From a virus, in the IMG/VR virus record IMGVR_UViG_3300031215_000053, positions 1-29,192 of that record: DNA of 29,192 bases; one strand, 5' to 3'. The number at the start of each line of letters is the position of its first letter. Positions within the stretch are counted from its first letter, which is position 1. Position numbers and translations under genes: made by a program. A model generated the notes under the pieces. It searched no databases and was not told where the DNA came from. It was given only the letters and a program-made list of their open reading frames with translations. Positions 2,911-28,445 of this stretch are shown in pieces.

Positions 2911-3168
2911 ATGGAACAGCTACCAATTTGCGAATGCGGGGCGGAATATTCGCCGCCTACCCATTCGACCGAGTCAGCGAAGCTGCACTGCTTCAAATGC
3001 AAGATGAAATCGTTCCGTGTGAACTGGGTGGGTGGCGGCAGCTACGGGCGACAAGCGTTCCACGACAAGACGACCAACGAAGTCGTTCGCGAACAGTGGA
3101 ACGACATCAAGAAAGCTGGCAACGAAAAAACGATGGAACCAGCGCCAGTGCGACAAGTGTTGATCTAA
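2911..3168 (+). CDS. Small Cys-rich (zinc-ribbon-like) protein
   Basis: 85 residues. Cysteines at 7, 9, 27 and 30 (CxC, then CFKC) could bind one zinc, followed by a basic stretch and the segment SFRVNWVGGGSYGRQAF. Small proteins of this type occur in actinophage structural regions, but I know of no assigned function. I chose the ATG at 2911; a GTG directly before it would add one residue. It heads the portal module right after motif copy 2, with no Shine-Dalgarno. Its TAA overlaps the next ATG (TAATG), so translation is probably coupled. Confidence 0.75.
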   Translation: MEQLPICECGAEYSPPTHSTESAKLHCFKCKMKSFRVNWVGGGSYGRQAFHDKTTNEVVREQWNDIKKAGNEKTMEPAPVRQVLI

Positions 3169-5851: not shown

Positions 5852-5870
5852 GGGACGCTATTGCCTAATA
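5852..5870 (+). promoter_or_regulatory. Late motif copy 3 (GGGAC-N8-CTAATA), before scaffold/coat
   Basis: GGGAC 5852-5856, eight bases, CTAATA 5865-5870, beginning two bases after the portal stop. Here the next ATG is 28 bases beyond the motif and carries a good ribosome site, GAAGGA at 5887-5892. So the motif is not itself the ribosome site and fits a promoter better. Confidence 0.72.
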
Positions 5871-7863: not shown

Positions 7864-7882
7864 GGGACGAAAAGGACTAATA
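7864..7882 (+). promoter_or_regulatory. Late motif copy 4 (GGGAC-N8-CTAATA), after terminator
   Basis: GGGAC 7864-7868, eight bases, CTAATA 7877-7882, then AGTG and ATG at 7887. It starts 13 bases past the terminator stem, the place expected for a promoter that restarts transcription. CTAATA through ATGG is identical to copy 2. Confidence 0.78.
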
Positions 7883-11276: not shown

Positions 11277-11295
11277 GGGACGAAACTGTCTAATA
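11277..11295 (+). promoter_or_regulatory. Late motif copy 5 (GGGAC-N8-CTAATA), before internal proteins
   Basis: GGGAC 11277-11281, eight bases, CTAATA 11290-11295, between the fibre stop (11275) and the ATG at 11310. It is followed by GATGAGGA, where GAGGA serves as ribosome site seven bases before the start. Confidence 0.72.
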
Positions 11296-17300: not shown

Positions 17301-17868
17301 GATCCCGTTCTGGACTTTCATGTCTCGATCGCTGCCTTTGCAACTCCAGCAACAGTTTTTGAAGCCTCGGGCGTACGCACGCTTCGATCATGCGGTCAGG
17401 AACTTCACGGACGAAGACGCCGAGGGCACGATGCCTGAGTGGATGGAGGCGGCTGGCGGCTTCATGGTCGGTGACGGCAAAGCCATTGTTCCCGACTTCC
17501 CGCATCTCGATATTCAGGAACAGTTGGCGATGTTGGGCGATCCGAAACGTTTGGTGGCGAACGCGAACCCGCTGCCGCGTGCTGCGACCGAAATCTTTAT
17601 GGATCACCAGTTGTACAAGGATCGTCCGTTCTACGAAGACGAAAACAAACCCCAATATTTTGCGACGAACACTTTGCCTGTCCTCGCCCAGTTGGAACGT
17701 TTGTCTGGTGGTCGGGTGTCGCAAGCGTTCACGGGTGACCGTGATGAGCGGCGCGACGATCGACAGTTCGAAGCGATGTTGAACTGGTTGGGTATCCCCA
17801 CGAAGGGTGTGGATGTCCCTAAAACTCAGGAAGATATCGCTCAGGCTTTGCGGGACAGTTTGGCCTAA
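14302..17868 (+). CDS. Giant internal virion (ejection) protein candidate
   Basis: 1188 residues, the longest gene here. Near the N-terminus it has VGLAGDLLLDPTTYLTGG (about 160-177), which I associate with very large phage internal proteins. Residues about 480-800 are helical and charged, probably coiled coil. Near 990-1025 comes HFDYSQLSEFDEAMK followed by RVIPFWTFMSRSLPLQ, a motif also seen in large virion proteins of unrelated phages. No lytic transglycosylase signature was recognised. It probably enters the host envelope with the DNA. The start is TTG in TTGA overlap. The stop TAA lies inside motif copy 6. Confidence 0.7.
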   Translation: MINQFDLARQKAEAQKIHQSRQGRGLAYSPMQQFQQPRPQREGGEDRLLEAAKAHLGTSEPEGEGGWKGFIGGVLNNPVASVLAKPLEAISMGGRGVTVGVEELAKALPEWAEFLNPLGMLVDEDKSRDDDRSWTDKIKDNSYGYGQITYNTGNKWVDRAVGLAGDLLLDPTTYLTGGSGKFAGTAGRLAAAEKLAIKGADAATIQKVSRLGISSLDDVTREMIGAGPAGARFMGKRIAGTGGATNAVARGVSKGAARVGDTSVGRGAAALRTPKNIKDEVASLRAKDPTLDPRSAITVIHARNVIRSEGRTFGQSHAADLRKVMAMSPSERSALTHAAEKGVDNEASRLAASVFSGAKEKGVSGLTERANYVTHVPTSSGKSLMQSLRETGQIKVDDLQSHGRAFARSLEPGGTYSYNGQAVTLGDASVDDINRKFGPLVGGEKVMEDDFAKIAQVMVGTTAEDVGVAQAVRSAKTNFPDQVEAETLGLEGQGWKQIVDENATKATNKTAKAASKKEVDKIKTVVKGLEAEIGSASKQSLRDAKAYLTSVIDELGTASKASKAELKRILAADVAEGKNLDNFLDAWRTQYEASQDWVKNSSRYLEMENDDAYAALGGVVRPGGRKSDARQLEALAELAEKDFEVFEAITTGRREVLQSEVGVAEGNSAALRAQRSEREAVSGAMQDEFREGAVAARSELAVFEATKAEAKALRGEVRDLPQNSRVRLQESMDELDQILSEWGGKTPDPETQQILDQLVDVRRMEVEVEGLGWTKKRHEDFIQYVKDGSLPERMKAVAADGWSRLESRVFAAGDSVMMRDQVRNGFLNATEMTGKKEYWRLYDNYTSFFKTYATATPGFHVRNFMSASFMNATEGVTIREHAEAMAWWKKVWSDPKLIADEGSAPQYIKDAFKATYGSGAGGRFGADEIADPTLYGRATNNKVTRGSQRMGEWVEGPMRLALALNTTKRGGDTAEALARVTRIHFDYSQLSEFDEAMKRVIPFWTFMSRSLPLQLQQQFLKPRAYARFDHAVRNFTDEDAEGTMPEWMEAAGGFMVGDGKAIVPDFPHLDIQEQLAMLGDPKRLVANANPLPRAATEIFMDHQLYKDRPFYEDENKPQYFATNTLPVLAQLERLSGGRVSQAFTGDRDERRDDRQFEAMLNWLGIPTKGVDVPKTQEDIAQALRDSLA

Positions 17869-17870
17869 TA
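17852..17870 (+). promoter_or_regulatory. Late motif copy 6 (GGGAC-N8-CTAATA), before fibre/lysis unit
   Basis: GGGAC 17852-17856, eight bases, CTAATA 17865-17870; the TAA is also the stop codon of the giant gene. GGTGAGGA follows, with GAGGA as ribosome site for the ATG at 17883. Confidence 0.72.
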
Positions 17871-17882
17871 GGTGAGGAACGC

Positions 17883-18053
17883 ATGTATTTAACAGTTGGG
17901 GGCGTTGACCGTCTCGTAGTGGGTGGCGGCGTACAGCAACCTTTGACGCCTTTAATGGCTGTCAGGTTGAACCGTCGAGGACAGATCCGTCGGAAAGTTC
18001 GTGGAGAAGTTGACGGCGGGATTTCACCGTCAGAATATTTGGTGGTTGTCTGA
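17883..18053 (+). CDS. Small basic protein, unknown
   Basis: 56 residues, starting MYLTVGGVDRLVVGGGVQQP, with a basic middle (RLNRRGQIRRKVRGE) and ending EYLVVV. GAGGA lies four bases before the ATG, and the stop overlaps the next ATG (TGATG), which strongly supports coding. First gene of the fibre/lysis unit. It may be a short connector or fibre-attachment protein; I do not recognise a family. Confidence 0.7.
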   Translation: MYLTVGGVDRLVVGGGVQQPLTPLMAVRLNRRGQIRRKVRGEVDGGISPSEYLVVV

Positions 18054-19264
18054 TGGCAGATAAAACGATTTCTGAGTTGACATACGATGTTGTGTCCGCC
18101 AATGATTATTTGGTGTTCCAGCAGTCCGATGGGTCAACAACCAATCGGACGAACCCGACTGATATTGTGGCCGATCTGGCGAACGTCGATCCTGGGACTG
18201 CACGTACCAACCTTGGGTTGGGTACGGCAGCTCTCACGTCGACCACAGCGTACGCTACGGCGGCGCAAGGCGAGGTGGCGGACACAGCGTTACAGGATGC
18301 CGATGTTGGTGTGTCGGTGCAGGCACATTCGGCTGTGTTGGATGCGACGACTGCGTCTTTTACTGTTGCGGATGAAACGAAGCTGGGTTTGTCGGCTTCG
18401 TTGGAGGAGGTGCGTGACGATCTTGCCACGGTGTTGACTGCTGGCACGAATATCACGATCACCGCTGATGACGCGTTGGATACGATCACGATCTCTGCCT
18501 CGGGCGGTGGTGGTGGCGGTGGTGCTGTTGACAGTGTGAACACTCAGACGGGTGTGGTGGTGTTGGATGCTGCCGACGTGGGCGCTGACCCTGTCGGGTC
18601 TGCTGATGCTGCCGAGGCCGCATCGCAGCCGCTCGACGCTGTCCTGACAGCTACCACGGCGTCGTTCACGACGGCCGACGAGACGAAGCTGGACGGGATC
18701 GAGGCGTTGGCGGATGTTACCGACACGGCGAACGTGACGGCCGCTGGCGCTCTGATGGATTCCGAGGTCGATGCCGACATCAAGACGCTGTCGCTTCCAG
18801 CAGCGACGACAATCTCGACGTTCGGCGCTTCGCTGATTGACGACGCTGCCGCATCGAACGCTCGCACGACACTCGGCCTTGGCACGGCTGCGACGACTGC
18901 GGGCACCGCTTACGCCACGGCAGCGCAGGGCACGCTCGCCGATGCTGCGTTGCCGAAAGTAAAGACGATCAACGCCCAGACGGGTACGACGTACACGCTG
19001 GTCAGTGGCGATCTTGGCAAGGTCGTCACCTGCTCGAACGCTGCCGCCGTCACCCTCACAGTGCCGCCGAATGCGTCGGTGGCTTTCGCTGTCGGCTCCA
19101 CGATCGAGGTGATCGGTGTCGGCGCTGGTGTTGTGACGATCGCTCAGGGCGCGGGCGTGACGGTGAACGCCACACCGTCGCTGGTATTCCGTGCCCAACA
19201 TTCTGGTTGCACGCTCGTCAAGACGGCGACGGATACTTGGCAGGCAGTGGGGGACTTCGTATGA
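18053..19264 (+). CDS. Tail fibre protein
   Basis: 403 residues. Low-complexity Ala/Thr/Asp repeats, a Gly7 linker (151-157), the common fibre motif SVNTQTGVVVLDAADVGAD (161-179) and a beta C-terminal domain (about 300-403) with TYTLVSGDLGKVVT. An internal duplication is exact in spacing: residues 50-80 (ARTNLGLGTAA and on) match 270-300. A second pair is LDATTASFTVADETK (96-110) and a near-copy at 198-212. Such blocks usually form a trimeric shaft. It overlaps neighbours by TGATG and ATGA. Confidence 0.88.
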   Translation: MADKTISELTYDVVSANDYLVFQQSDGSTTNRTNPTDIVADLANVDPGTARTNLGLGTAALTSTTAYATAAQGEVADTALQDADVGVSVQAHSAVLDATTASFTVADETKLGLSASLEEVRDDLATVLTAGTNITITADDALDTITISASGGGGGGGAVDSVNTQTGVVVLDAADVGADPVGSADAAEAASQPLDAVLTATTASFTTADETKLDGIEALADVTDTANVTAAGALMDSEVDADIKTLSLPAATTISTFGASLIDDAAASNARTTLGLGTAATTAGTAYATAAQGTLADAALPKVKTINAQTGTTYTLVSGDLGKVVTCSNAAAVTLTVPPNASVAFAVGSTIEVIGVGAGVVTIAQGAGVTVNATPSLVFRAQHSGCTLVKTATDTWQAVGDFV

Positions 19265-21536: not shown

Positions 21537-21715
21537 GCGAACCACAGCGTTACAAGAGGGGCCCGAAAGCTCGGCTGGAACAGACGGGACAGACGGAACA
21601 AAAAGGTACCGTTATCGGTGCTGTTTTGCCCGAGGTCGGGGAAATCGTGTTCGGGGACGACGAGGTGATCGAGTGGCGGCTCGATTCGGTCGAGGTGTGC
21701 GAGGCTTGCGACTAG
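21533..21715 (+). CDS. Small acidic-tailed protein, unknown
   Basis: 60 residues, with a basic N-terminus (MSEPQRYKRGPKARLEQ) and an acidic C-terminus with two cysteines (VEVCEACD). It overlaps the endolysin by ATGA. It is the last late gene, and its TAG overlaps the TAG of the HNH gene on the other strand within CTAG. Lysis-linked by position; no family recognised. Confidence 0.6.
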   Translation: MSEPQRYKRGPKARLEQTGQTEQKGTVIGAVLPEVGEIVFGDDEVIEWRLDSVEVCEACD

Positions 21716-22062
21716 TTTCGTTTGAGCGCGCCGTTGGCGTGTTGTTCTTTCGTGACCTGCTTGTGGCAGGGCACGCATAGGACTCGCAGGTTGTCTGCGT
21801 GATGCGAGCATGACCATTGGCCGTGTTTGCCCATTGCGGGTTCGATGTGGTCGACGTTGATGTCGTGTTGTTGGTACATGTATTCGCAGATGGCGCACAT
21901 GTACCAGGCTGCTTGTTTGCGGCAGTTGTCTTTGGCGTCTGTCCAGCGATGGTTGATACGGTTTTTGCGGGCGCAGGTTCGTGAGCACCATTTGCGTTGT
22001 TTGCCTGTCAACTTTTTTTCGCACCAGTTGCAGCCACGCGTTTTTGTGAGTGTGCAGGTCAT
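21712..22062 (-). CDS. HNH endonuclease
   Basis: 116 residues. An N-terminal zinc cluster (C11, C14, C26, C30) is followed by the HNH core: C56/C59, D71-H72 (VDHIEP), N91 (DNLRVLC) and C96/C99/H100 (CVPCH). It is complete and apparently active. HNH proteins of this size may be free-standing homing nucleases or take part in packaging. It is the last gene of the leftward unit, coupled to the preceding one by TGATG, and its stop codon overlaps that of the convergent late unit. Confidence 0.92.
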   Translation of the reverse strand: MTCTLTKTRGCNWCEKKLTGKQRKWCSRTCARKNRINHRWTDAKDNCRKQAAWYMCAICEYMYQQHDINVDHIEPAMGKHGQWSCSHHADNLRVLCVPCHKQVTKEQHANGALKRN

Positions 22063-22820: not shown

Positions 22821-23032
22821 CAGGTGCGGTATTCGGGGTCGCGTCGATGTACCTCGACGACGACTCCGCTACCCGTCCAGCGGCGCACGCCTTTCTTGCG
22901 GAAGATAGGCCACCACTGGTCGCCTGGTTCGAGGAGGATGTCGTGCCATTCGGCGCTGGGTTCGTCGCGCCTCCAGCGGGCTTCAATGTCCTTTTCGGTG
23001 CGGCGCGTTTTGGGGGTTGGTCGGTTGGTCAT
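22820..23032 (-). CDS. Small basic early protein
   Basis: 70 residues, basic at both ends (RPTPKTRRTEKDIEARWRR, VEVHRRDPEYRT), with a small beta core containing DILLEPGDQWWPIFRKKGVR. ATGA overlap with the gene before it and TGATG with the one after. Could be a small nucleic-acid-associated protein; no family recognised. Confidence 0.62.
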   Translation of the reverse strand: MTNRPTPKTRRTEKDIEARWRRDEPSAEWHDILLEPGDQWWPIFRKKGVRRWTGSGVVVEVHRRDPEYRT

Positions 23033-23403
23033 TCGGTTTCTCCCTCTCCTTCGGTTTCTCCTTCGTCCTCGCCTCCGTGGTCGCGCACGCCTTCGTGGGT
23101 GTGCCCGTCGGATTCGTCTTCGTCTCCGTGGTCGTGCACATCTTCGTGTGTATGCCCGTCGGAGGCGTCCGCCTGTTCCTGTGCGATGCGTGCCCCGTTC
23201 TGCTGCGACATGAACTCCAGTCCGAAACGGGCAAGAGCTTCTTCGAACGTGGCTTGCAAGTATTCTTTACGCTTGTCGTCTTCGGTGATGAATGACATCG
23301 GCGTCAGCCGTGTGTCCATCTTCACTGACTGGGTTTCACCGTCGGGTTCGGCCCATTCGAACAGGAGTGTCATGGTTTCTTCGTTTACGATTACCGACAG
23401 CAT
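23029..23403 (-). CDS. Protein with His/Asp/Glu-rich tandem repeat tail
   Basis: 124 residues. The first 75 look like a small folded domain (VIVNEETMTLLFEWAEPDGE, DKRKEYLQATFEEALARFGL). The tail carries two 17-residue repeats, SDGHTHEDVHDHGDEDE and SDGHTHEGVRDHGGEDE, then GETEGEGETE. The dense His and acidic residues suggest metal (zinc, nickel or calcium) binding. ATG at 23403 is chosen because it overlaps the previous stop (TAATG); a longer frame from 23463 would overlap that gene by 60 bases. Confidence 0.72.
   Translation of the reverse strand: MLSVIVNEETMTLLFEWAEPDGETQSVKMDTRLTPMSFITEDDKRKEYLQATFEEALARFGLEFMSQQNGARIAQEQADASDGHTHEDVHDHGDEDESDGHTHEGVRDHGGEDEGETEGEGETE
23062..23163 (-). 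repeat. Two 51-bp tandem repeats (His/Asp/Glu-rich)
   Basis: Units at 23113-23163 and 23062-23112 encode two near-identical 17-residue blocks that differ at three positions. The 51-base period keeps the frame. Confidence 0.85.
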
Positions 23404-24239
23404 TACTTTGTCTCCTTGAGGGGAAGCAGGAACGTGTCTCGTTCCAGCATGGTTGAGATACATGCGTACCCGACGAGGTCGAGGTAGGCGTCGAGGTACG
23501 GGTCGTCGTCGAAGTCGGCTTTGCCAGCTTCCCAGTCGTTTTTGCCGTGCAAGATACGGGCGTGCTTGTCTGACATTCGGACGAGCAGCCCGACCTGTTC
23601 GAACTCTAAAATGTTTCCTGCACCGTACTTGTGGTGGCGTTCGACGAGAAGGTTGACGATCGTCTTTCTCAGGTCGTCGCGTGATTCGAACGTGTTGAGG
23701 AAACGGAAGGCGTTAGCCCCAATGTCTTGCAGGATGAGGGGCAGTTCGTCTTCGTTTGCGGTGCCCAACACTTGTTTGCCTTCGGCTATCAGCTGGCTTG
23801 TTGGTGACGGTGCTTCTTCTGCGATCACCATGATCCATGCTGCCGCGTCTTCGGCTGCTTCGTTCCATGTTTCTGTGTCCAACTTGTATCTCCTGTAGAT
23901 GGTGGGGTGGGCCCGTAGTAGCGGGGCGATTGCTGTGAGTGCTTGCTTGTGGAGGCGGTGGGCGTGCGTTTTTGACATGCCGATGCGTGGCCCGAGTTGA
24001 CGGAACGAAAGCCTTTCGGCGTCGATGCCGTTCAACAGGTATTGGTGTTCTAGGGTGAGGGCGGCAGCGCATTGTGCGACTGCTTCTCTGAGGATTTGTA
24101 GTTCTTCTGCCGATTCGTCGATTGCTTGGCCTGGTGCGGTTCGCATGATGGCGTCGATCGGGTTAAACGGCGTTTTGGGGTCGGCGGTCCACGCCCATCG
24201 GCGGTGGTCGCCTGGTGTTTCTTGGCGGGGGCGGTCCAT
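23403..24239 (-). CDS. Sigma-region-4-like HTH fused to Nmad1/DUF1599-like domain
   Basis: 278 residues in three parts. Residues about 48-110 resemble sigma-70 region 4: ALTLEHQYLLNGIDAERLSF, then a helix-turn-helix in RQLGPRIGMSKTHAHRLHKQ. Residues 115-190 are helical and unknown. Residues about 190-270 match the Nmad1/DUF1599 pattern: LVERHHKYGAGNILEF, GLLVRMSDKHARI, DDDPYLDAYLDLVGYACI. Nmad1 is a family predicted to act in modified-nucleotide metabolism of phages. No sigma region 2 is present, so it could bind a promoter or anti-sigma partner but is not a complete sigma factor. TAATG junctions with both neighbours. A longer frame from 24854 runs through other genes. Confidence 0.75.
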   Translation of the reverse strand: MDRPRQETPGDHRRWAWTADPKTPFNPIDAIMRTAPGQAIDESAEELQILREAVAQCAAALTLEHQYLLNGIDAERLSFRQLGPRIGMSKTHAHRLHKQALTAIAPLLRAHPTIYRRYKLDTETWNEAAEDAAAWIMVIAEEAPSPTSQLIAEGKQVLGTANEDELPLILQDIGANAFRFLNTFESRDDLRKTIVNLLVERHHKYGAGNILEFEQVGLLVRMSDKHARILHGKNDWEAGKADFDDDPYLDAYLDLVGYACISTMLERDTFLLPLKETK

Positions 24240-24724
24240 TAGGCGAACACATCTTCGTTGTCGGGGACCGTTTGCGGGTCTGTGGGGAAGTGGTCGGTGT
24301 GGAGCGCCCAGTAGTGCTTGCCTTCGGGGAAGGTGAGTAGTTCGCCGTGGGTTTGTGCGGCGTCTTGCCAGGTGTGGGTTGCGTCTTGCCACCACACGTT
24401 TTTTGCGGAGCTGTATACGAAGAGTTCGGTTGGTCCAAGTTTGGACCATTTGTTGAGGGCTTCGAGTTTTTCTTGCTTGATTTTGAGGGTGTTGTCTCGT
24501 CCGATGCCCATGCATTCGATGAAGCACCAGCGGGATAGGCGGTCGGGTGTGTAGCGCATGGCGTCGGTCATGTCGTTGAGGTAGAGGCCATCGCCGTTTT
24601 GCCAGATGCGGTTGAGTCCGAGGGTGTGCGTTTTCCCGTGGTGGACGAGGTCGCACGCGTTTTCGGCTTGGTCGCCCATTTGGGTGACGCGTTGGGTCCA
24701 GTTCTTTTGATGGAAGGCGCTCAT
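24239..24724 (-). CDS. Putative PD-(D/E)XK-type nuclease
   Basis: 161 residues. It begins SAFHQKNWTQRVTQMGDQAEN and has D-M-R-Y-T-P-D-R, then WCFIECMGIGRD and LKIKQEKLEALNKW. An acidic residue, then E-C-M with K-x-K two turns on, recalls a PD-(D/E)XK core (E in FIEC, K in LKIK). Related small proteins occur in replication modules of actinophages. It lies beside RusA. The start at 24724 makes ATGA with the preceding stop; an earlier ATG at 24787 is unlikely. The nuclease call is tentative. Confidence 0.5.
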   Translation of the reverse strand: MSAFHQKNWTQRVTQMGDQAENACDLVHHGKTHTLGLNRIWQNGDGLYLNDMTDAMRYTPDRLSRWCFIECMGIGRDNTLKIKQEKLEALNKWSKLGPTELFVYSSAKNVWWQDATHTWQDAAQTHGELLTFPEGKHYWALHTDHFPTDPQTVPDNEDVFA

Positions 24725-25020
24725 CGGTCCGTGCGTTCCCTCCATGCGGTTGTGTCGTCTCCGAAGTCGATGTCTTCGTTGAGCCACACGGCTGTTCCTT
24801 CGGCCTGGTCGTATCCCATGTAGTCGTGGATGTCGGTCGGGTCGATTTCGACACCGTTTTGGGTGATGGTGATGTTGTATTCGGGGTCGGTGAGCCAGCC
24901 GTGTTCTTCTGCGAATTCGAGGGCTTGTCCGATGGTGTCGAGGATGTAGCTGGAGTGCTGGGTGTCGGTGACCCCGTGTTGTTCGGAGTATTCGATTTGG
25001 TAGACGACGAGGGTGACCAT
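24721..25020 (-). CDS. Small acidic early protein, unknown
   Basis: 99 residues, strongly acidic, with VTLVVYQIEYSEQHG at the start, a helix (DTIGQALEFAEEHGW) and a beta C-terminus (YNITITQNGVEIDP, GTAVWLNEDIDFGDD). Coupled to RusA by TGATG and to the next gene by ATGA. Its acidity could suit a DNA mimic or regulator; this is speculative. Confidence 0.6.
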   Translation of the reverse strand: MVTLVVYQIEYSEQHGVTDTQHSSYILDTIGQALEFAEEHGWLTDPEYNITITQNGVEIDPTDIHDYMGYDQAEGTAVWLNEDIDFGDDTTAWRERTDR

Positions 25021-25370
25021 CAGAGCTTTCTCATTTCCAGGTAGCCGATTTGTTTGTCGTCTTCCCAGACGACACCGTTCAGGGAGTCGAGGATCGTTTT
25101 GGCGTAGTTGTCGATGTCGCCGCGCAGTTTGCGTTCCTTGTAGTCGTCGCATTCGGTGACGGACAGGTAGAAGTGGTCGTTCGACAGGCCGATTTCGACG
25201 GCGATTGGGCCGTCGAACTTTTCGAAACTGGTGGCGAGTTCTGCTTGTACGGCTGCAAGGATTCGGGCTTCGGCGTCCCTTGTTGCTTTCGGTGTGTAGG
25301 CGTGGCCGTTGGCTACTCGGGGCCGCTGCTTTGCGTGCGGCTTCCAGGGGATTTTGATGTCGAGTCTCAT
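25020..25370 (-). CDS. RusA-like Holliday junction resolvase
   Basis: 116 residues, normal for RusA. It cleaves four-way DNA junctions, resolving branched replication or recombination products before packaging. Visible: KPHAKQRPRVANGHAYTP near the N-terminus, the catalytic acids D85 and D87 in RGDIDNYAKTILDSLNGVVW, and D104/D105 in EDDKQI, matching E. coli RusA D70, D72 and D91. Overlaps neighbours by ATGA and TGATG. No other resolvase seen here. Confidence 0.92.
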   Translation of the reverse strand: MRLDIKIPWKPHAKQRPRVANGHAYTPKATRDAEARILAAVQAELATSFEKFDGPIAVEIGLSNDHFYLSVTECDDYKERKLRGDIDNYAKTILDSLNGVVWEDDKQIGYLEMRKL

Positions 25371-25618: not shown

Positions 25619-26563
25619 TTATGCGTGTGAGTAGCATCTTTCGATGATCCCCATGATTTGTTCGTCGCAGTCTTCGCGGCCAAAAAACTTGCCCCATCGG
25701 GTGTCTGCGTCTTTGACGATTGAGAAAGCGGCTGGCATTGACATGCCATCCTCTTTCAGGTTGTACCCCAGTTTTGCGAGCGTGTTGGAGCGATCTCTGC
25801 CTTCGAGTGGCCCGTCACGCCAGATCGAGTAGGTGAGTCCTCGGACGGCGGTCAGTAACGCTTGGATGTTGTCGGGGACTGGACCGTCGAATGTTGCGAC
25901 GGGTGGCGGTGTCCATAGGGCTGCGACCGTTTCGAGGGCGTCCAGGGCGGTGTATCGCAGCTTGAGGGTTAACCATTCTTCGAGGCCGTACAGGTCGTCG
26001 TAGCCGTCACAAAACTTGCGTTCGTGTTGTGTGGTGTCTGACAGGTATCCGTGGTAGGGGAGGCGCACATAGTTCCCGATTTTTCCTGTTTCTAGTGTTT
26101 CGGATTTCGGGTTTACTTCTTTCGGGTCGTAGTTGACGGCTTTGCACGCGGCCATCAAAGCTCGCCGCATGTGTGCGGCGTTCGCTTTGCCGCCTTCGGG
26201 GAACACCCACAGGTGGTAGCCGTTGCGTGTCTGTTCGATGTGGCCGAACACGTTTTTGATTTCGAGCATGATGCGGAGTGTGTTCGCCAAGCCCCACATT
26301 TTTGGGAAGTCGTGGTCGAAGTCTTTGCCGTCGACATCTATGCATCCCCAGGTGACGTGTGAGTGTCCGTCGATGGATGTTCCGAGGTGCGGGTACACCC
26401 CAATCCATCGCTTCCCTGCTGGCGAACACAGATGGTCTACGGTGTCGGCGTAGGCGTGGGGGCCTCGGGCGATTCCGCTTCCTGGGCCGTCCCAGGTGCC
26501 GAGGGCGTCTGGTCGGCCTTTGAAGAGGTGGTGGAATTGTTTGATGGCGTCGGATTCGTTCAA
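25619..26563 (-). CDS. AEP-superfamily DNA primase (prim-pol type)
   Basis: 314 residues. It is the archaeo-eukaryotic primase type, which makes primers and may also polymerise. Motif I is GCIDVDGKDF with D76 and D78; motif II is RNGYHLWVF with H117; a later GNYVRLPYH (163-171) could hold motif III. The C-terminal part (200-314) is helical, as in phage primases with an accessory domain. The start is TTG at 26563, in TTGA overlap with a tiny gene, with GGGAG six bases upstream. The RecA/DnaB-like helicase gene lies nearby. No separate DNA polymerase is seen in the window. Confidence 0.82.
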   Translation of the reverse strand: MNESDAIKQFHHLFKGRPDALGTWDGPGSGIARGPHAYADTVDHLCSPAGKRWIGVYPHLGTSIDGHSHVTWGCIDVDGKDFDHDFPKMWGLANTLRIMLEIKNVFGHIEQTRNGYHLWVFPEGGKANAAHMRRALMAACKAVNYDPKEVNPKSETLETGKIGNYVRLPYHGYLSDTTQHERKFCDGYDDLYGLEEWLTLKLRYTALDALETVAALWTPPPVATFDGPVPDNIQALLTAVRGLTYSIWRDGPLEGRDRSNTLAKLGYNLKEDGMSMPAAFSIVKDADTRWGKFFGREDCDEQIMGIIERCYSHA

Positions 26564-26646: not shown

Positions 26647-26857
26647 CTCCGTAGCCTTTCTTGTAGAAGGTGCCTCGCATTTGTTGTTTGTGGTTTGCGG
26701 GGCGGTCGGGAAGGTTTTTGTATCCTGATTTGCAGATGGGGCAGGGTGAGCTGCATGCGATTGCGTCGCAGTGCTGGCAGACGAGCACGTCTGAGATCAT
26801 TGTTTTCACTGATTCGCAGATCCCACATGTCCTTTTGCGTGTCATGGTTGGTGCCAT
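26630..26857 (-). CDS. Small double zinc-ribbon protein
   Basis: 75 residues. Cysteines at 11/14 (CGIC), 27/30 (CQHC), 35, 39 and 42 (CPIC) suit one or two zinc ribbons, followed by a basic tail (KSGYKNLPDRP, MRGTFYKKGYG). Such proteins may bind nucleic acid or bridge replication proteins. ATG at 26857 overlaps the helicase stop (TGATG); a second ATG four codons in is possible. Function unknown. Confidence 0.7.
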   Translation of the reverse strand: MAPTMTRKRTCGICESVKTMISDVLVCQHCDAIACSSPCPICKSGYKNLPDRPANHKQQMRGTFYKKGYGDGPSA

Positions 26858-27945
26858 CAGAAGGCCTCCTGTTCGTAGCTGGCGGGTGCGGGTTCGGCGG
26901 GTGCGCCGAATGTGTTCAGGTATTGTTGGGGGAGGTCGCCGTCGTCGAGTTCGTATAGGCGTCCTGTTGATAGGTCCATTTCGAAATCGATTTCGTCTAC
27001 CAAACTGCCTCCTGGTCGTTTGTTTTTGACGAGGTTGGCGGACAGTGTGTATTCGTGGATGCGGAGGTCGTGGGCGAGTTCTTCTCGTCGGTCGTTGAGT
27101 GCTTCGCTGTTGGGGTTGCGTAACAGTTTACCTCTGACTTCGATGAGTTCGGACATGATCGCAGCTTTTTTGCGGCGCACTCCGATCATCATGGTGGCGT
27201 GTTGTTCGCCACCATAGTTGCCAGATGAGATTGTCATTTCTCGTCCTTCGGCTCCGCCGCTGCGTGATGTTTGGTGGATGGCGATCATGCCTACTTCGTT
27301 GTGTGATACGAACGATTTGAGGATGTCCATTTTTTGGGGGACGACTTCTGCGCCCATCACGAGGTCGACGTAGTCGACGATGGTGATGTCTGCCGAGTCT
27401 CCCCACACGTCGCATGCTTCTTTGTAGCCGTCGTTGAGTGCTGATGGGGTGAGGGATTTGTCGAACACGATCAGGTTGGGGAAGTGTTCTTCTGCGACGG
27501 AGCGGAGCAGGCTGATGGCTTCTTTGTCGCCTTGCGCTACTTTTTGTTCGAGTTCTCGGGCGGGGATGCCGTGGACGAGTGAGGCGAGTTTGGCGAGGGT
27601 GAGGGTGTTGGGTTCGTCTGGTTCCCACCAGGCGATGCGGGCTTTCGGGTTGGATCGCAACATTTCTAGCAGTAGTAGCGTTTTGCCTGAGTGGGAGTAG
27701 CCGACGATGAGTGCGAGGTGGCCTGGGCTGATGCCTCTCATTTCGTCGTCGAACTTTCGGATGCCTGTGTAGAAGCGTTTGGTGTTTTGCGCTTCGTGGA
27801 CGAATGCGTCTGCGGCTGCGGAGAATGGTTTGTAATGTTTGCGGGGTTTGGTGAATGCGGGTTCGTTGCGGGCTGGTTCTGTTGGGGTTTCGAGTGTGGA
27901 CCAGGCGGCTGCGGCTTGTTCGGCGGTCATGGGTGTTGGGGTCAT
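26857..27945 (-). CDS. RecA/DnaB-like ATPase (replicative helicase candidate)
   Basis: 362 residues. It has a RecA-fold core: Walker A GYSHSGKT (82-89), a downstream WWEPDEP with likely catalytic E108, Walker B ITIVDYVD (D191), the HQTSRSGGAEG sensor-like segment (224-234), and a basic loop (VRRKK). This is the DnaB C-terminal pattern without the DnaB N-terminal primase-binding domain, as in many phage helicases. It precedes a primase, supporting a helicase-primase pair. ATG at 27945 is chosen for its ATGA overlap; an earlier start at 28014 would overlap the preceding gene. Confidence 0.82.
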   Translation of the reverse strand: MTPTPMTAEQAAAAWSTLETPTEPARNEPAFTKPRKHYKPFSAAADAFVHEAQNTKRFYTGIRKFDDEMRGISPGHLALIVGYSHSGKTLLLLEMLRSNPKARIAWWEPDEPNTLTLAKLASLVHGIPARELEQKVAQGDKEAISLLRSVAEEHFPNLIVFDKSLTPSALNDGYKEACDVWGDSADITIVDYVDLVMGAEVVPQKMDILKSFVSHNEVGMIAIHQTSRSGGAEGREMTISSGNYGGEQHATMMIGVRRKKAAIMSELIEVRGKLLRNPNSEALNDRREELAHDLRIHEYTLSANLVKNKRPGGSLVDEIDFEMDLSTGRLYELDDGDLPQQYLNTFGAPAEPAPASYEQEAF

Positions 27946-28445
27946 GGGTTCCGTTTCTGTTGTCGAGGTGATGGCACAGCTTCGACGGGGTAGGCGACTT
28001 GTCCCGCTTCGCACGGGCCGATCTGGTCGGTGATGATCTCATTGGCCGAACTTGCGGGCCACAGGAACACACCGACGCCATCGGTCACGATTACTTCGTC
28101 GCTCAGAGAGAGTGATTCAATGACCACTTGGCCCACGATCAGGACGGGTTTGCCGAGCTTCACGACACCGTGTACAACGTCGTACGGCTCGTTGCCTGGG
28201 TGGACTTCCATCTCGCTGACGATCTCGACGGTGGGCGGATAGCCGAGGCCATTGCAGTCGGGGCAGGGTGGTGAGTTTCGACCGTAGACCTGGACGTTCC
28301 CGCTGCCGTCGCATGTCTCGCACCTGATCGGGCCGACAAGCCAGGTGATCTCGGCGGGTGCGATGTCCACACCGTTACCGAAACCCATCAGCTCGGGGAA
28401 CATGCGCTCGGCTAGCTGGCGGTCAACGACGTGTCGCTGCGTCAT
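27942..28445 (-). CDS. Protein with DnaJ-type zinc finger, no J domain
   Basis: 167 residues. CETCDGSGN (C42, C45) and CPDCNGLGY (C61, C64) form the CxxCxGxG pair of the DnaJ cysteine-rich domain, which can bind unfolded protein. No J domain (HPD) is present. The C-terminal half (about 75-165) is beta-rich with GKPVLIVGQVVIESL. ATG at 28445 is chosen for ATGA with the previous stop. Codon use favours GAG and CAG, unlike the genes further left. Function unknown; a small chaperone-like or adaptor protein is possible. Confidence 0.65.
   Translation of the reverse strand: MTQRHVVDRQLAERMFPELMGFGNGVDIAPAEITWLVGPIRCETCDGSGNVQVYGRNSPPCPDCNGLGYPPTVEIVSEMEVHPGNEPYDVVHGVVKLGKPVLIVGQVVIESLSLSDEVIVTDGVGVFLWPASSANEIITDQIGPCEAGQVAYPVEAVPSPRQQKRNP

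Follow-up and report, generated by a model that had tools for sequence, protein, structure and literature searches.

A recurrent phage fusion of a sigma region 4-like domain to Nmad1/DUF1599 that retains a Shine-Dalgarno sequence and start codon at its junction

Introduction

Sigma region 4 (σ4) reads -35 DNA and grips RNA polymerase by its beta-flap tip, and a σ4 module that lacks region 2 is unable to serve as a full sigma factor. By analogy, the protein analysed here, a σ4-like helix-turn-helix (HTH) fused to an Nmad1/DUF1599 domain, is most likely a gp33-like or RinA-like regulator directed at RNA polymerase.

As outlined in the account cited, phage T4 gp33 is a σ4 mimic that sits on the beta flap and steers late transcription (PMC2988020). 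By that outline the likeness lies in a small phage protein with a σ4-like role and no region 2, acting on the host RNA polymerase and tied to replication (PMC2988020). Gp33 differs in having a sliding-clamp-binding tail and a partner, gp55, whereas the fusion carries Nmad1, and the 37 records searched yielded no region-2 protein above the cut-off; the comparison is one of descriptions rather than of sequences. Jumbo phages, as that paper presents them, encode minimal single-HTH sigma factors (PMC7824862), which resemble the fusion in having a sigma-type HTH without the other sigma regions and differ in that no Nmad1 fusion is described for them, Nmad and DUF1599 being absent from the main text (PMC7824862). 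RinA/ArpU-type late regulators (phrog_36; gp67 of phage PK3.5) also carry a σ4-related HTH, and the PK3.5 gene overlaps a DUF1599 gene, although these two are separate genes in the opposite order and with different flanks. Stand-alone phage Nmad1/DUF1599 proteins (phrog_1485, PF07659) share the homologous domain and its invariant residues with the fusion but are mostly ~95-160 aa long and lack a fused HTH.

Genes within genes offer a further comparison. The rpn genes yield a full-length protein, RpnL, and a separately translated C-terminal domain, RpnS, and this domain is summarised as dimerising and blocking the full-length protein (PMC10327210), while lysA of mycobacteriophage Ms6 is likewise presented as a gene within a gene with an internal start (PMC3111421). 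Unlike in rpn and lysA, the second product of the present gene is a prediction, and it concerns a transcription-factor-like fusion.

No σ4-Nmad1 fusion is described in the titles and abstract openings of the papers listed in literature searches on Nmad1/DUF1599 and in broader ones. What is new here is that the junction of the fused genes retains a Shine-Dalgarno sequence and a start codon. The gene may be described as a phage regulator of the σ4 type, joined to a partner domain new to such regulators and probably containing a nested gene.

The fusion gene and its surroundings

The stretch of DNA analysed (the window) is a complete virus record of 29,192 bases, in which 24239-23403 (-) forms a single uninterrupted frame of 278 codons with no stop inside. 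The features referred to below are as follows.

23403..24239, minus strand: σ4/Nmad1 fusion gene, 278 aa, stop included (open frame and 18-member fused family)
23910..24107, minus strand: sigma region 4-like domain, residues ~45-110 (profiles, AlphaFold2 model, relatives)
23442..23672, minus strand: Nmad1/DUF1599 core, residues ~190-266 (conserved residues; family fixed via relatives)
23890..23894, minus strand: internal Shine-Dalgarno sequence AGGAG at the fusion junction (sequence and duplex energy)
23880..23882, minus strand: putative internal start TTG, codon 120, 7 nt past AGGAG
23403..23882, minus strand: predicted second product, a free Nmad1 domain of 159 aa (matches stand-alone Nmad1 genes of split relatives)
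24239..24724, minus strand: gene upstream of the fusion gene (homologous, at 28% identity, to its positional counterpart in MW202803.1)
23029..23403, minus strand: gene downstream of the fusion gene
25020..25370, minus strand: RusA endodeoxyribonuclease (PF05866, 8e-18)
25619..26563, minus strand: AEP (TOTE-type) primase (PF22548, 4e-10)
26857..28014, minus strand: DnaB-like helicase (PF03796, 1e-6)

TAATG overlaps link the fusion gene to both the preceding and the following gene, which places it in a tight operon. The preceding gene has, by eye only, the look of a PD-(D/E)XK nuclease, a reading that no Pfam family supports. A small protein further along (21712-22062, minus strand) appears HNH endonuclease-like by eye, with no Pfam confirmation at E<=0.001.

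Fused and split relatives

The fused family consists of freshwater viruses of bacteria. In GenBank the sole matching phage is MW202803.1, a 42-kb uncultured podovirus whose origin is Manatee Spring; it has the DnaB-like helicase and the large terminase (45% identity) in common with the window as well. There the two domains are separate, overlapping frames, preceded by a homologue of the gene before the fusion in the window; the HTH protein matches PF04545 at E 0.005 and the stand-alone Nmad1 protein matches PF07659 at E 4e-6, over the cut-off. Both genes (~17521-18292; L002:2520-3291) are wholly unannotated in the GenBank record.

Single-protein scans of viral and genome contigs with the window protein or its DnaB recovered no relatives, and neither did a two-member DnaB alignment. 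An Nmad1 alignment search of IMG/VR returned 80 loci, two of them with the same fusion, and a fused-plus-split alignment returned 80 further loci; against genome contigs the latter found no relative, which is weak evidence of absence since one pattern was used. With three fused queries, none of 50,697 phage records covered 80% of the fused protein. Altogether 21 fused frames were collected, from which 18 distinct proteins were aligned (12 mutually below 60% identity), and the same two domains occur as adjacent, mostly overlapping genes in 21 further loci.

A tree built on 102 columns, from 19 fused and 21 split loci that include a few near-copies (L003, L052, L091, L112, L147 and L158 being omitted as duplicates), shows the fused and split forms alternating, although its bootstrap is unsettled and the position of the window is unsure because of its very long branch (2.7). 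A single origin of the fused clade was considered and is unsupported, since the fused label requires at least three changes on starred branches of the tree.

Fused and split forms occupy the same place in one replication operon. Upstream of them, on the same strand, the 40 loci encode RusA (39), the AEP primase (38) and the DnaB-like helicase (36), some contigs being cut off early. Gene order in the window is the same, from DnaB helicase through AEP primase and RusA to σ4/Nmad1, with Pfam support for each. From this shared operon order the fused or split gene therefore belongs with replication and recombination genes, and the earlier description of the product as an early-region protein fits a gene that follows DnaB, primase and RusA within one operon.

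The sigma region 4 half

The window protein alone matches the σ4 families below threshold, with E 0.12 against PF04545 (Sigma70_r4), E 0.001 only in a one-genome PF04545 search, and E 0.0016 against TIGR02937 (sigma70-ECF), which is under the curated cut-off; its HTH matches phrog_36 (RinA-like) weakly (E 0.042). At E<=0.01, PF04545 is found in 15 of the 18 fused proteins, the window lying outside these. Whole-record searches passed the PF04545 cut-off in 12 of the 17 fused relatives G001-G017 and placed the family in 33 of 37 records (16 over the cut-off), with very few other PF04545 places in the records of the fused/split group. For the full-length window protein, AlphaFold2 gives an all-helical model (pLDDT 83.9, pTM 0.79). 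Its residues ~31-120 resemble sigma region 4, and every leading PDB match is a sigma region 4 (VIA Z ~10), including those of SigH, SigL and WhiG, with 60-88 residues aligned at an rmsd of 1.2-3.7. Sequence and model together identify residues ~45-110 as a sigma region 4 module.

The first-pass annotation had described this protein as the only sigma-like one in the window, in agreement with the single PF04545 place and the zero PF04542 places detected there. As sigma region 2 (PF04542) was over the cut-off in none of the 37 records (the window and 36 relatives), the protein is not a complete sigma factor. The absence of region 2 beside a σ4 domain, the precedent of gp33 and the minimal sigma factors of jumbo phages favour a regulator directed at RNA polymerase. 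The sequence, the model and these analogies suggest, with a probability of about 0.5, that the gene codes for a regulator by which the phage targets the host RNA polymerase, made as two products and with Nmad1 as a partner domain. The modelled σ4 fold would be compatible with beta-flap binding, no more, as flap binding and plain DNA binding cannot be told apart from the fold alone.

A possible, though less favoured, explanation is a DNA-binding regulator that makes no use of the beta flap, in which Nmad1 or the full protein would dimerise and two σ4-type HTHs would bind phage operators as an activator or repressor. RinA-like phage regulators do use σ4-type HTHs (phrog_36), and MW202803.1 (L089, L003, L090), a relative with the split pair, carries the 15-bp palindrome GTTTC-N5-GAAAC at 23 sites (including 1128, 6796, 19957, 22764, 30051 and 41435), inside and between genes and genome-wide, which looks like an operator or stoperator set. 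However, no such palindrome set is present in the window, and nothing connects the palindrome to the σ4/Nmad1 protein. The reading preferred here is still a regulator directed at the host RNA polymerase.

A translation start at the junction

In most split loci the HTH and Nmad1 frames either abut or share between a few and a few tens of bases (the long overlap in L114 and L115 stems from the choice of the first possible start codon), and the Nmad1 gene begins shortly 5' of a conserved TW-like motif. In most fused genes the residue before this motif is M, with V, L or I in the remainder; it stands exactly where the Nmad1 gene would begin (one column earlier in L138), and the bases that precede its codon are Shine-Dalgarno-like, with AGGAG or GAGG in many. 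The window junction reads AGGAG-N7-TTG.

The anti-Shine-Dalgarno duplex energy at each place was compared with that after random synonymous recoding under local codon usage. In the window the junction has an energy of -7.4, ranking second of 269 in-gene positions, with a synonymous-codon P of 0.033. A first combined figure for these energies excluded L095 and L096. For the test by alignment column the 18 fused genes were cut to 12 families by identity (<60%). Over 250 columns, the junction column has a z of -5.28, and 10 of the 12 families have a start codon there. The only other low columns are 206 and 209-211, neighbours that see the same Shine-Dalgarno sequence; column 209 is slightly lower (z -5.46) but is without start codons. 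The best unrelated column, near the gene end, reaches z -1.68, while the mean over all columns is z +1.0, the rest of the genes avoiding Shine-Dalgarno-like sequence. In the split loci the Shine-Dalgarno energy is <=-4 at 17 of 18 stand-alone Nmad1 starts, as against 14% of background positions. The Shine-Dalgarno sequence and in-frame start are hence conserved beyond protein-level constraint, as in a gene within a gene.

This conservation at the junction indicates that the fused genes keep a second translation start, and its sequence suggests that each of them probably makes the full σ4-Nmad1 protein plus a free Nmad1 domain. On the other hand, the internal Shine-Dalgarno sequence could be a relic of a split ancestor, such as recent fusions could retain, with the full-length fusion being the only product and the internal signals functionless leftovers. 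The alternation of fused and split forms on the tree means that some fusions may be recent, and internal sites are weak in 3 of the 18 fused genes (L055, -2.9; L100, -3.9; L104, -0.9, with an ATC codon); in the window the TTG is a weaker start. We nevertheless consider mere leftovers rather unlikely, as synonymous recoding singles the site out over 12 families below 60% identity, within genes that otherwise avoid such sequence.

The Nmad1/DUF1599 half

The window protein alone has no match to PF07659, although its residues 189-266 match phrog_1485 at E 0.0012, a family that is also matched by proteins that Pfam names Nmad1. At E<=0.01, PF07659 is found in 17 of the 18 fused proteins, the window being the non-matching one; in whole-record searches the cut-off was passed in 11 of the 17 fused relatives G001-G017, and the family was present in 36 of 37 records (26 over the cut-off), with the window the sole record without it. 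The C-terminal part of the window protein is 37% identical to the Nmad1 protein of MW202803.1 over 81 residues (pairwise E 2e-15). An alignment of 82 of 92 candidates plus the window has 11 residues invariant across the 83 sequences, and the window keeps all 11 (Y205, G206, I210, G217, R221, D224, K225, R228, D250, D254 and Y258), while deviating at four near-invariant positions (K to R201, D to K204, L to G232 and E to D246). Its Nmad1 domain is the most divergent of the fused ones, on the longest end branch of the tree.

Modelled alone, the Nmad1 half reaches a pLDDT of 89.1. No solved relative was found by sequence, and the model has no clear fold match in the PDB, where the best (VIA Z 5.1) is a designed protein; it does match predicted phage proteins that bear the name 'nucleotide modification associated domain'. 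MazG-like chains are absent from the PDB matches listed, one weak MazG-like match occurs in BFVD (probability 0.30), and hhalign comparison of Nmad1 with two phage proteins annotated as pyrophosphohydrolases did not support MazG kinship. The absence of a MazG-like PDB match should not be taken to mean that the fold is new or that kinship is lacking. Residues ~190-266 are identified, by sequence and model, as an all-helical and divergent copy of the Nmad1/DUF1599 domain. The first-pass annotation had thus read both halves of the protein correctly: profile searches and structure prediction leave the window's own matches sub-threshold, and Pfam matches in the relatives settle both domains, the model adding support for σ4.

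An association of Nmad1 with σ4-like genes extends beyond the fused and split group. A σ4-like gene is fused to Nmad1, overlaps it or lies <=1.65 kb downstream of it in 43 of 80 viral loci, which are not independent events because many are related. All 43 associations are on the same strand, and none occurs elsewhere in these loci at the threshold used. These counts lean towards the loci in question, because the σ4 profile was built from matches there and then iterated; checks with PF04545 and PF08281 are independent of it, and 24 of 28 separate sigma-like proteins tested match PF08281. Nmad1 does not need a σ4 gene, since 82 of 160 Nmad1 rows, many of them from short contigs, show none nearby. 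Among cultured phages with an Nmad1-like match, two of six tested have a σ4-like neighbour (a count that leaves out PMBT69, DaviePasture and cr128_1). In Geobacillus phage PK3.5 the gene that DUF1599 overlaps is a RinA regulator with a strong phrog_36 match, and in Rossellomorea phage phiT1 Nmad1 lies ~1 kb from a sigma-70 gene. JCL1032 has an overlapping HTH protein that is non-σ4, σ4 is absent among the neighbours tested in Javan35 and LYGO9, and it is absent from the two upstream genes tested in SV21. The uncultured ct2KA10 and MW202803.1, outside the six-phage count, have σ4-like neighbours too.

It was also proposed earlier that the fusion could link gene control to modified-nucleotide metabolism, with a nucleotide-modifying or nucleotide-sensing Nmad1 tethered to transcription and responding to the nucleotide pool or DNA modification. 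This idea rests on the family name (Pfam's 'nucleotide modification associated domain 1') and on neighbourhoods, such as that of PK3.5, where DNA methyltransferases and a dUTPase lie at no great distance from DUF1599; in addition, the 11 invariants, which include R, D, K, R, D, D and Y, resemble a polar site. However, no base- or nucleotide-modifying enzyme was detected at Pfam E<=0.001 among the 37 other open reading frames of the window and none is annotated in MW202803.1, no characterised Nmad1 activity was found in the literature searched, the window departs from the consensus at its four near-invariant positions, and Nmad1 is without a solved relative or a clear PDB fold match. The proposal consequently finds no backing in these data and appears improbable. 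As for the first-pass caution that a sequencing error might have split the gene in relatives, splits do occur, in MW202803.1 and 20 other loci, while error is ruled out by recurrence. An artefact of sequencing or assembly that joined two genes, conceivable inasmuch as close relatives carry both genes apart, is refuted by the 18 distinct fused proteins, which come from separate viral contigs and different metagenomes, and the fusion is taken to be real because the fused form recurs in 12 families below 60% identity.

A proposed mode of action

For a regulator directed at the host RNA polymerase, the following scheme may be envisaged. The full-length σ4/Nmad1 protein and a free Nmad1 domain from the internal start would be made together and would co-assemble via Nmad1, the internal start setting the number of σ4 arms per complex; alternatively, free Nmad1 could restrain the full-length protein. 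Analogy with genes within genes such as rpn is the basis for proposing that the two forms co-assemble or antagonise each other. The σ4 arm would take the place of the host sigma region 4 by docking to -35-like DNA, the host beta flap or both, and transcription would shift once the replication operon is expressed, as with T4 gp33 or RinA-type late regulators. Nmad1 would here act as a transcription-factor partner rather than, or besides, as a nucleotide-modifying enzyme.

Nmad1/DUF1599 is widespread in phages, and its recurrent fusion to, or overlap with, a σ4-type regulator ties the domain to transcription. Together with the conserved internal start, which predicts two products, the fusion hints at a role in gene control for a poorly understood helical domain. 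A wider and distinctly tentative generalisation is that phage Nmad1/DUF1599 may be mainly a regulatory partner of σ4-type factors and not a nucleotide-modification domain, the fused genes being self-contained regulators that make their own free partner or antagonist and are timed by the replication operon. If true, this would represent a new layout for the takeover of host RNA polymerase by small phages without a recognisable polymerase of their own, and would potentially provide a small, expressible system for studying such takeover.

Repeated motifs and other observations

The late genes of the window are preceded by a repeated motif.

388-406, 2888-2906, 5852-5870, 7864-7882, 11277-11295 and 17852-17870, plus strand: GGGAC-N8-CTAATA, each copy just 5' of a late gene

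These six copies are exact, where 0.11 would be expected with <=1 mismatch. In three copies an ATG follows only 4 bases past CTAATA, and in two others a Shine-Dalgarno-like GAGG lies within a few bases; because these signals are so close behind, transcription would start at or before CTAATA. The fusion had been regarded as a natural candidate to read this motif, a suggestion that the comparison does not bear out: among 36 related records, 17 of which share the fusion, none holds an exact copy, region 2 was not detected, and the usual sigma-70 -35/-10 spacing is longer than the 8-bp gap. Each phage could still have its own diverged recognition motif. Six related phage records and MW202803.1 were compared for gapped motifs that recur; among the matches listed, no counterpart of GGGAC-N8-CTAATA appeared, the repeats being low-complexity, coding or palindromic only. 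Besides the late motif, the leading repeats of the window are GC-rich CGACG/TCGTCG pairs and similar sequences.

Between the terminase and portal genes of the window, 2911-3168 (plus strand) encodes a small protein with a zinc-ribbon-like CxC...CxxC look, and the gene in its place in MW202803.1 is annotated 'DNA-directed RNA polymerase'. The fused relative G016 (L178) has its own repeated palindrome, ACTGATA-N5-GTATCAGT, which is unlike that of MW202803.1 and lies at ~6455, 7002, 7713, 8302, 9730 and 11961.
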